Assembly: GCF_000336935.1 (NCBI RefSeq)
Contig: NZ_AOME01000077.1
Location: 1 to 60,438 of the forward strand
Length of the DNA: 60,438 bases
Source of the DNA: Halococcus salifodinae DSM 8989
GTDB lineage: Archaea > Halobacteriota > Halobacteria > Halobacteriales > Halococcaceae
Reading direction: 5' to 3'
In this document: positions 9,317 to 58,820 of the stretch, piece after piece
Numbering within the stretch: the stretch's first letter is position 1
Layout of the letters: every line of letters starts with the position of its first letter
Position numbers and translations under genes: made by a program
The notes under the pieces: model-generated
The model's input: the letters and a program-made list of their open reading frames with translations, nothing else
The model's database searches: none
Told to the model about the DNA's origin: nothing

Positions 9317-9535
9317 ACGTTTTTACTTCGGGGGTTCGCGCGCTCGCTTCGCGCGCTCAACCCCTCGCAAAAGCGTTCATGAAAAACCCCGCTCGCTCCC
9401 TGCGGTCGCTTCGCGGTAGAACTACTAGCGACTACCGCAGGCCGCACCGCCACCTCCTCCGTACAGCACCGCCGAAGCCCTCGCCCACTCACTCCGAGCA
9501 CCCGCTCGCCCTTCATCCACCAGGAGAGCGTGCTC
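9317..9535 (+). repeat. dispersed 3' repeat family B, copy 2
   Basis: It starts at the phoU stop with ACGTTTTTACTTCGGGG. A palindrome (GCGCGCTCGCTTCGCGCGC), CCCCTCGCAAAAGCGTTCATGAAAAACC, a CGCGGTA...ACTAGC box, and the tail CAGCACCGCCGAAGCCCTCG with CGCCCTTCATCCACC follow. The order and orientation relative to the upstream gene are as in the other copies. The T-tract probably terminates phoU. Confidence 0.85.
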
Positions 9536-9584
9536 TCGTGAGCCTCGACTCACCCCGTTTGTCGAGACACCAGGAACCGCACCG

Positions 9585-10025
9585 CTACCGCCGGCCAAGG
9601 TCGTCGAGCACGACCGGATCGTAGAACGTCACGTCGTCTCGGAGCCGTTCGGGAGCCATCCACGTCGCCTCATAGGTCTCGTCGAGTTCCGGTTCGCGGC
9701 CCTCGAAGCTGTCGCGCTCGTACGGCCAGTCCTCGGCGATGTCGCCCTCGTACACCCGCCAGATTTCGTGGCCCTGCTCGCCGTCGAAGGTGAACACGTT
9801 CTCGTAGGTTCCAGTGGGGTTGACGTTCGTGAGTTCGACATCGAGTTCCTCGCGGAACTCACGGACGACCGATTTGCGGCTGTGTTCGCCGAACTCGACG
9901 CCACCGCCGATGAGCCGGTAGAACGGCTCGTCCTCGCCGGGTTCGTCGTCCTTCGAGACCAAAATTTCTCCGTTCTCTCGACGGACGGCCGCGAGTGCGA
10001 CCGGCCTGATGGCTCGCCAACTCAT
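9585..10025 (-). CDS. NUDIX hydrolase
   Basis: A 146-residue NUDIX-fold enzyme. The Nudix box runs from GGGVEFGEHS to VVREFREELDVEL, with all the metal-binding glutamates. Such enzymes hydrolyse nucleoside diphosphates linked to another moiety; the substrate here is unknown. The start MSWRAIRPVALAAV leads straight into the first strand. It is on the same strand as the CDC48 gene behind it, separated by a repeat B fragment. Confidence 0.85.
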   Translation of the reverse strand: MSWRAIRPVALAAVRRENGEILVSKDDEPGEDEPFYRLIGGGVEFGEHSRKSVVREFREELDVELTNVNPTGTYENVFTFDGEQGHEIWRVYEGDIAEDWPYERDSFEGREPELDETYEATWMAPERLRDDVTFYDPVVLDDLGRR

Positions 10026-20389: not shown

Positions 20390-20560
20390 GCGGTAGCGGG
20401 GCGGTGGTAGTTGCGGTAGCGGGGCGGTGGTGGTTGCGGTAGCGGGGCGGTGGTGGTTGTGGTAGCGGGGCGGTGGTGGTTGCGGTAGCGGGGCGGTAGT
20501 AGTTGCGGTAGCGGGGCGGTGGTGGTTGCGGTAGCGGGGCGGTAGTAGTTGCGGTAGCGG
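20390..20560. repeat. 23-bp tandem repeat array (7.4 units)
   Basis: Seven consecutive copies of GCGGTAGCGGGGCGGTGGTGGTT, plus a final 10 bases, with only a few G/A or C/T differences between units. The unit resembles the reverse complement of the tail of repeat B (AACCACCACCGCxCCGC), which lies directly to the right. The array may therefore be a local amplification of that tail. It is not a CRISPR: there are no spacers. Confidence 0.92.
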
Positions 20561-20564
20561 AGGT

Positions 20565-20801
20565 GGTCGGTGGTCCTCGGTGGATCGAGGGCGAGGTGCG
20601 CGAGCGAACGGAGTGAGTGAGTAAGCCGAGGGCTCGGGCGGTGCTGTGCGGTGGTGGTTGCAGAGCGGTCGCGGAGAGCGCCAGCAGTCGTACCGCGAAC
20701 GAGCGCCGAAGGCGCGAGTGAGCGGGTGTTTTTAGTCCAGGTTTTTGGTCGGGGGTTGAGCGCGCCGCAGGCGCGCGATGCCCCCGTCTAAAAAAGTGGG
20801 T
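20565..20801 (-). repeat. dispersed 3' repeat family B, copy 4
   Basis: Read from the ferredoxin stop on the minus strand: ACCCACTTTTTTAGACGGGGG, a palindrome (GCGCGCCTGCGGCGCGC), CCGACCAAAAACCTGGACTAAAAACACC, a GCGCCTTCGGCGC hairpin, GTTCGCGGTACGACTGCTGGCG, CTCTCCGCGACCGC, GCACAGCACCGCCCGAGCCC and CGCCCTCGATCCACC. It is one of the most complete copies. Beyond it lie the 23-bp array and about 90 bases without any feature. Confidence 0.88.
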
Positions 20802-27814: not shown

Positions 27815-28060
27815 ATCCCGAGACAAATGAATGACCGTAGGCCACACCCTCCCCAGCCGATTCACTCGCTTCGTTCGCTTCGCTCACTCTGCTCGCTCAT
27901 CCACCGTCAGAGCTTCGCTCTGACGAGCCTGCGCTCGCGTTGCTCGCGCAGACCTCGCACGAGTCGCACGCCTCCGGCGTGCTCACGGGTCGCTCCGCTC
28001 CCCGTTCGCAGTCGAGGTGCTTACTACGTTCGCACCTCGCACCACTCCCGCACGCCAACG
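27815..28060 (-). repeat. dispersed repeat family A, copy 2
   Basis: Lies in a 412-base gap between the convergent YigZ and upp genes. On the plus strand it runs ACAAATGAATGACCGTAGGCCACACCCTCCCCAGCCGATTC, then a row of TTCGCTTCGCTC-type palindromes and CCGTCAGAGCTTCGCTCTGACG, and ends with CACCACTCCCGCACGCC. The other end of the gap (to 28164) shows no feature. Confidence 0.8.
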
Positions 28061-49420: not shown

Positions 49421-49597
49421 GGCGGTGGCGCGCGGGAGGGCGCGAAGCGCCCGACCCGCGCGAGGTCTGCACGAGAAATCGAGTGCAGGCTCGTCAGAGC
49501 GGAGCTCTGACGGTGGATGAGTGACGCGAGCAGCGCGAGCGGAGCGAATCGGTTGGGGAGGCGTGTGGCTTGCGGTTCTCATTTGTGCCGGGATTAG
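49421..49597 (+). repeat. dispersed repeat family A, copy 3
   Basis: GGTGGCGCGCGGGAGGGCG, a GGCGCGAAGCGCC hairpin, GCGCGAGGTCTGCACGAG, the long palindrome GTCAGAGCGGAGCTCTGAC, GCGAGCAGCGCGAGC, then GGTTGGGGAGGCGTGTGGC and GCGGTTCTCATTTGTG. A T-tract (49408-49414) between the NUDIX stop and the repeat probably ends transcription. From 49598 to the next gene nothing else is seen. Confidence 0.82.
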
Positions 49598-55840: not shown

Positions 55841-56171
<331 letters not shown>

Positions 56172-56510
56172 AACCCACCTTTTTACTTCGGGGTGGTTCG
56201 AAAATCGCTACGCGATTTTCGTCAGTGCAAGAAATCGAAGATTTCTTGCTTGCAATCAGAACGCTTCGCGTTCTGATGACATCACGAGACGGCGAAGCCG
56301 TCTCGAACGAGTTCGCGCCCTTCGGGCGCTCAACCCCTCGTAAAAATCTGGACCAAAAACACCCGCGAGCGCCCGTCAGGGCGCTCACGGTAGACCTACT
56401 AGCCTTTTCTCCAACAACACAGCGCCGCCGAAGCCCTCGCTCACTCCGTTCGCTCGCCCTTCATCCGCCAGGCCCGCACCGCCACCGTCAACCAACTGTC
56501 GTTTCGGAGT
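56172..56510 (+). repeat. dispersed 3' repeat family B, copy 7, with hairpin ladder
   Basis: From the eIF1 stop: ACCCACCTTTTTACTTCGGGG, then five successive perfect hairpins (see findings), CTCAACCCCTCGTAAAAATC, TGGACCAAAAACACCCGCGA, a GAGCGCCCGTCAGGGCGCTC hairpin, CACGGTAGACCTACTAGCC, TTTTCTCCAACAACAC, AGCGCCGCCGAAGCCCTCG and CGCCCTTCATCCGCC. It is a complete copy with an expanded variable zone. The gap to the next gene holds nothing else. Confidence 0.9.
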
Positions 56511-58650: not shown

Positions 58651-58820
58651 GAATCACGTCGCAAACGAGAACCGCAGGCCACACCCTCCCCAACCGATTC
58701 GCTCACTCGCTTCGCTCGTTCGCTCATCCACCGTCAGAGCTCCGCTCTGACGAGCCTGCACTCGCTCCGCTCGTACAGACCTCGCGCGCGAGTCGCGCAC
58801 TTCGTGCGCTCCCGCGCGCC
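58651..58820 (-). repeat. dispersed repeat family A, copy 4
   Basis: On the plus strand: GAATCACGTCGCAAACGAGAACCGCAGGCCACACCC, CCAACCGATTCGCTCACTCGC, a TTCGCTCGTTCGCTC series, CCGTCAGAGCTCCGCTCTGACG, CTCGCTCCGCTCG and GCGCACTTCGTGCGCTCCCGCGCGCC. The 140 bases between it and the NUDIX start hold no recognisable feature. Confidence 0.82.

Follow-up and report, generated by a model that had tools for sequence, protein, structure and literature searches.

The window, i.e., the whole analyzed stretch of 60,438 nucleotides from Halococcus salifodinae DSM 8989, carries an eIF1/SUI1 gene whose closest named relatives belong to H. thailandensis and H. morrhuae. A ladder of hairpins begins 23 bases past its stop codon, downstream of a T5 tract. 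The earlier note had described it as five perfect inverted repeats, and all five are present. The features of this region, together with a related site elsewhere in the window, are as follows.

55878–56171, + strand: eIF1/SUI1 gene (97-aa ORF), upstream of the ladder and outside the element; present in all 10 Halococcus genomes searched
56178–56193, + strand: left edge, CCTTTTTACTTCGGGG, of an intergenic repeat of Halococcus that hosts the element (host repeat); it includes a terminator-like T5 tract right after the gene, and the block also follows other genes, both in this genome and in further Halococcus genomes
56194–56310, + strand: four-hairpin insert of 117 bp, type A with unit B within it, delimited by the interior lengths of host sites and by linkers and lengths
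56194–56224, + strand: left part of type A (TGGTT, hairpin 1, TCA)
56199–56221: hairpin 1, stem 10 bp, loop TAC
56225–56281, + strand: unit B, 57 bp, hairpins 2 and 3 joined by TTGCA, within the TCA|TCA linker of A; A-only copies have TCATCA there, and A+B sites are longer than A sites by exactly 57 bp
56227–56249: hairpin 2, stem 10 bp, loop GAA
56255–56277: hairpin 3, stem 10 bp, loop TTC
56282–56310, + strand: right part of type A (TCA, hairpin 4, AACGA)
56285–56305: hairpin 4, stem 9 bp, loop GAA
56311–56345, + strand: host hairpin (hairpin 5) and right edge of the host repeat, CAACCCCTCG, also seen in an element-free copy in the same genome (L062)
56315–56329: hairpin 5, stem 6 bp, loop TTC
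56363–56390, + strand: additional 12-bp hairpin, imperfect, within the right-hand part of the host repeat, a part that recurs across the genome
9320–9374, + strand: empty copy of the host repeat, TTTTTACTTCGGGGGTTCGCGCGC..CAACCCCTCGCAAAA, with no ladder

The five hairpins are genuine and lie far outside what chance would produce. Compared with dinucleotide shuffles, the ladder region folded with z-scores of −8.8 (RNA) and of −9.4 and −8.1 (the two DNA strands), and none of 200 shuffles folded as well. Perfect stems of at least 8 bp with a 3-nt loop occur 13 times in the 60-kb window, against approximately two expected from order-3 random sequences. As previously noted, the stems differ and the size and loops are common; the accompanying statement that four loops are TTC or GAA holds only when hairpin 5 is counted, hairpin 1 having the loop TAC. 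The suggested UUCG loop core has to be abandoned: the loops are of the 3-nt form C(UUC)G, not C(UUCG)G, and the triloops obtained in folding rule out UUCG tetraloops. An assembly error at the site is contradicted by two more near-identical copies on other contigs and by ladders with other stems in other genomes. The property overlooked so far is that the linkers are fixed: GTGGTT, TCATCA, TTGCA, GACATCA and AACGAC.

It should be mentioned that the window contains other repeats. Another dispersed hairpin, CGTCAGAGC-nnn-GCTCTGACG, with a fixed stem and a changing loop, stands singly at 27905–27925, 49492–49512 and 58732–58752 (loops TTC, GGA and TCC, respectively), and an intergenic tandem array of ~26-bp units like GGTAGCGGGGCGGTGGTGGTTGC occupies positions 20395–20560.

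Both flanks of the ladder belong to the host repeat. In the empty copy L062, GGGG is followed directly by the same hairpin, GTTCGCGCCCTTCGGGCGCTCAACCCC, and the junction exactly matches both window flanks. In total, 13 host sites of the form TTTTTACTKCGGGG..CAACCCC were compared, and they fall into three classes by interior length: 20–28 nt (empty, n = 8), 80–82 nt (A, n = 2) and 137–139 nt (A+B, n = 3), with steps of 60 and 57 nt between the classes. Thus, hairpins are gained as pairs, 60 bp and then 57 bp, and not singly as had been envisaged. Within its own genome, the 251-bp ladder region is matched 43 times, and two of these matches, on other contigs, span almost its full length. At the same eIF1 site, eight of the 10 Halococcus genomes contain the common intergenic repeat with variable hairpins and two lack it; the ladder is found there only in the genome studied here.

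The whole intergenic repeat of Halococcus is ~400 bp long and present in dozens of copies per genome; in the window it lies at 56178–56500, at 9320–9600 and, on the minus strand, near 20780–20600. Its conserved blocks are TTTTTACTTCGGGG, CAACCCCTCG, GGACCAAAAACACC, CACAGCACCGCCGAAGCCCTCG and CCCTTCATCCGCCAGG. A different double-hairpin unit, CCAGG[AGAGC..]..[GCGGTCGC..]ACGCCAGG, was observed downstream of eIF1 (L042), where it is filled in one species; the window is empty for this unit at 56470–56500, and a GCCAGG direct repeat is apparently associated with the unit. Four loci (L039, L043, L045 and L013) carry a third double-hairpin unit, whose stems vary and whose linkers, TCTGCTC[..]TCGCACGGTA[CGAGGGAC..]CTACTCGC, are fixed.

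The commoner form of the inserted element, type A, is a 60-bp double-hairpin repeat, TGGTT[stem]TCATCA[stem]AACGA, with the consensus including flanks GTGGTT[CGA..TCG]TCATCA[CGA..TCG]AACGAC. Its terminal inverted repeats, TGGTT..AACGA, are short, slightly imperfect (4/5 complementary) and fixed in 67 copies. The preceding base is G in 58 of these copies and the following base is C in 63; both may be target DNA rather than part of the element. The four-hairpin form is 110–120 bp long, and eight distinct ladders of this kind were revealed in four Halococcus genomes and one Halomicrobium urmianum plasmid. Among their 32 hairpins 28 are perfect and four have a single mismatch; the linkers are identical or nearly so and the stems differ, the H. 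urmianum ladder having four other stems. The evidence that B moves on its own is weaker than that for A, and no movement was observed from one strain to another within a species.

Insertion of type A was also observed outside Halococcus. A plasmid of Haladaptatus sp. DYSN1 is filled at TTCAAACG|CGACAA, where Halorussus salilacus and Natronococcus occultus are uninterrupted, and a plasmid of Natribaculum longum is filled at CCTG|CGTTGC, where Natrinema sp. SYSU A 869 is uninterrupted and Natronomonas pharaonis is empty with a slightly different right flank. Both inserts are 60 bp long, with neither duplication nor deletion; since the empty sites are copies of dispersed repeats, these comparisons are paralogous as well as orthologous. 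Two further insertions interrupt tnpB-like reading frames, whose flanks rejoin without duplication, and no target duplication was found over the 67 type A copies. At one locus (L217, 1380–1700), the 3′ part of a tnpB ORF holds an in-frame type A insertion, and an element with the linker TGATCA lies just downstream. Some copies sit in the loop of the palindrome CCTCGGGG-TCAAG-CCCCGAGG, as found near TnpB genes, and several insertions into IS605-type palindromes are clear (L207, L209, L224 and L256). When all flanks were considered, hairpins surrounded 4 of 67 insertions against 1.3 by shuffling, a weak test in which individual shuffles gave up to five. The target is mostly a G|C step, often in or beside a hairpin, the preference for hairpins being clear in single cases. 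Overall, there is hardly any doubt that a dispersed element has been inserted downstream of eIF1.

The distribution of type A was studied with a linker-only pattern, with the reversed pattern as a control. All 10 Halococcus genomes contained it (83 copies), as did 227 of 392 genomes and 68 of 95 genera of Halobacteriales, and it matched 33 haloarchaeal plasmids. The control gave no matches among the same 392 genomes, and type A was absent from the 242 other genomes of the phylum. Unit B with the TTGCA linker is rarer (eight of 195 genomes in five genera, searched with a pattern in which the B stem is partly fixed). Three viral matches lacked hairpins and are attributable to chance, so that a viral origin was rejected. 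In the literature, the matches listed for the motif string comprised only primers and chance matches.

The linkers are almost invariant, and the stems differ on both arms yet remain Watson–Crick paired. Among 48 elements selected for no more than two mismatches in each hairpin, a cut-off that favors paired stems, stem pairs 4–9 were variable and nevertheless 92–100% Watson–Crick in both strand senses; pairs 1–3 are partly dictated by the search pattern. The suggestion that palindromes are kept perfect regardless of their sequence is borne out, both arms changing jointly between copies and between genera. The loops occur as reverse-complement pairs (GAA/TTC and GGA/TCC), and the counts of loops and of their reverse complements are correlated (r = 0.92). 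In the copies on contigs C77 and C70, hairpin 2 has one and the same stem, with the loops GAA and TTC, respectively. Equal stems in both hairpins of one element were not found (0 against 2.4 expected), a difference that is not significant (P = 0.06).

Template switching is known to homogenize arms and to invert spacers, including gaa to ttc, in yeast (PMC8604942), and to create and maintain stems (PMC8794818). Insertion, lack of duplication, nesting, distribution and paired stem change are established. The ladder is probably a non-autonomous small mobile DNA repeat, SMR-A/REPIN-like, which would be recognized by its DNA hairpin structure and whose stems are probably kept perfect by template switching. 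As fixed linkers are combined with free but paired stems, we infer that folded DNA is what is recognized, and mobility based on structure appears likely. In the proposed mechanism, a trans-acting enzyme would recognize folded DNA hairpins and linkers, not the stem sequence. The element is inserted without target duplication, here at the foot of the host-repeat hairpin of Halococcus, and unit B sitting in the linker of A gives the four-hairpin form. Template switching between arms at replication would keep the stems perfect and flip the loops. We lean slightly toward this mode of stem upkeep; the paired stem change could alternatively come from selection for structure without template switching. 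More tentatively, one may imagine an order-wide class of archaeal mobile DNA in which folded hairpins and fixed linkers are recognized, the stem is free, a non-Y1 enzyme acts and template switching keeps stems and flips loops, a generalization that at present looks rather doubtful.

Three other explanations were weighed. The earlier note had proposed a 3′-UTR ladder that blocks exonucleases; more generally, the hairpins could form a functional RNA selected for stabilizing or terminating mRNA, with compensatory stem changes. The strong RNA folding, the paired stem changes and the mostly intergenic location of the copies, often between convergent genes, agree with such a role. However, the ladder lies behind a T5 tract, and copies of these elements occur between genes in either orientation, on plasmids and within tnpB, all of which speaks against a dedicated exonuclease block. 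The dispersed copies rule out a one-off ladder of the eIF1 3′-UTR, and only this species of 10 has a ladder at eIF1. With a rough gene finder, 16 of the 48 elements were placed between convergent, 22 between codirectional and four between divergent genes, and four were inside predicted reading frames; the codirectional copies show no preference of orientation (12 to 10). An excess of G.U is absent: mismatches were G.T in 12 and A.C in 10 cases in one set, compared with 5 G.T and 9 A.C in a second set that overlaps with it, so that wobble on the element strand is not favored in this small test, which assumes that strand to be the RNA. No RNA-strand bias was found among type A copies, and Rfam 15 gave no family match above the gathering score. 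We therefore regard a functional RNA as improbable.

It is also unlikely that the hairpins are decayed or core-deleted IS200/IS605 ends (PATEs) moved in trans by a Y1 TnpA. Haloquadratum has PATEs with near-terminal palindromes (PMC3119063), target duplication is absent, type A occurs within IS605-type palindromes and tnpB, and one B-type pair lies ~120 bp from a tnpA (L245), all of which would fit. On the other hand, type A behaves as an insertion into IS605-type elements, and the TnpA and TnpB loci of its own genome, which has four Y1_Tnp genes, terminate in different hairpins that lack the linkers of A and B; when these transposon ends were compared, the terminal repeats of type A were not found at them, and IS605 ends were rejected as the source. 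Moreover, no Y1 transposase was detected in copy-rich genomes with 17, 14, 13, 11 and 10 type A copies, and genomes with 10 and nine Y1 genes have no copy. A Y1 transposase as a needed partner was rejected as well, because gene and element counts, compared by eye from two tables, do not run in parallel. Finally, in a scenario without mobility, recombination or gene conversion would spread host repeats together with hairpins, and template switching would make and edit palindromes in place. The 98% identity of the copies on contigs C77 and C15 over 186 bp of ladder and host repeat is as expected from conversion, and perfect stems with inverted loops fit template switching; but a 60-bp unit with fixed ends and clean junctions in plasmids, tnpB and different palindromes makes this scenario very unlikely.

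To return to the proposed mobile repeat, it offers a natural set of hairpins whose joints stay fixed as the stems drift, which makes the role of template switching in pairing measurable. It also calls for caution, as paired stem change alone is no proof of a functional RNA.

Comparison with known systems reveals likenesses to several of them. MITEs carry the ends of a known transposase and usually show target duplication; type A inserts without it. Haloarchaeal PATEs share palindromes and the lack of target duplication and transposase with type A, but the IS605-type ends of this genome are other hairpins, and type A inserts into such elements. Double-hairpin elements that are dispersed and thought to be mobile also occur in the mitochondria of the fungus Allomyces. 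Repetitive hairpin elements of sponge mitochondrial DNA are likewise dispersed, thought to be mobile and found one beside or in another, with conserved stems and varying loops (PMC2800124); type A, by contrast, has variable stems and fixed linkers. REPINs are inverted REP doublets with a GT[AG]G tag, moved by RAYT, and archaea were reported to have only TnpA subclass 1.1 and no RAYT (PMC6006769). As in bacterial REPIN/BIME, two inverted hairpins form the unit of type A, and the element is extragenic and non-autonomous. The tag before the hairpin resembles GT[AG]G in part, being GTGG on one side and GTCG on the other, and its first G may be target DNA. Unlike REPIN/BIME, the stem sequences are not conserved, and a cognate RAYT-type gene is missing in that not a single Y1_Tnp is present in several copy-rich genomes.

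The nearest system in behavior is SMR-A of Haloquadratum walsbyi (HqIRS42, HqIRS43 and HqIRS55), which is ~110 bp long, has terminal inverted repeats, no transposase and no target duplication, and is inserted in near-terminal palindromes of IS605-type elements; SMR types are reported to be >95% conserved (PMC3119063). The element described here is also short, without a transposase, has inverted ends and inserts without duplication, in several clear cases in IS605-type palindromes. Its four-hairpin form is 110–120 bp long. It differs in that the commoner type A alone has 60 bp, is order-wide and combines free stems with fixed linkers; the type A pattern had no match in the one Haloquadratum genome searched (J07HQX50). 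We place it among the small mobile repeats as a new variant and, because SMR-A was compared by description and not by sequence, not as a proven SMR-A member. Haloarchaeal small mobile repeats were previously described from one species, and their movement was termed enigmatic; here, the mobilizer becomes searchable and testable through a family whose ends and empty sites are known exactly, which occurs in nested forms and has hundreds of copies throughout an order.
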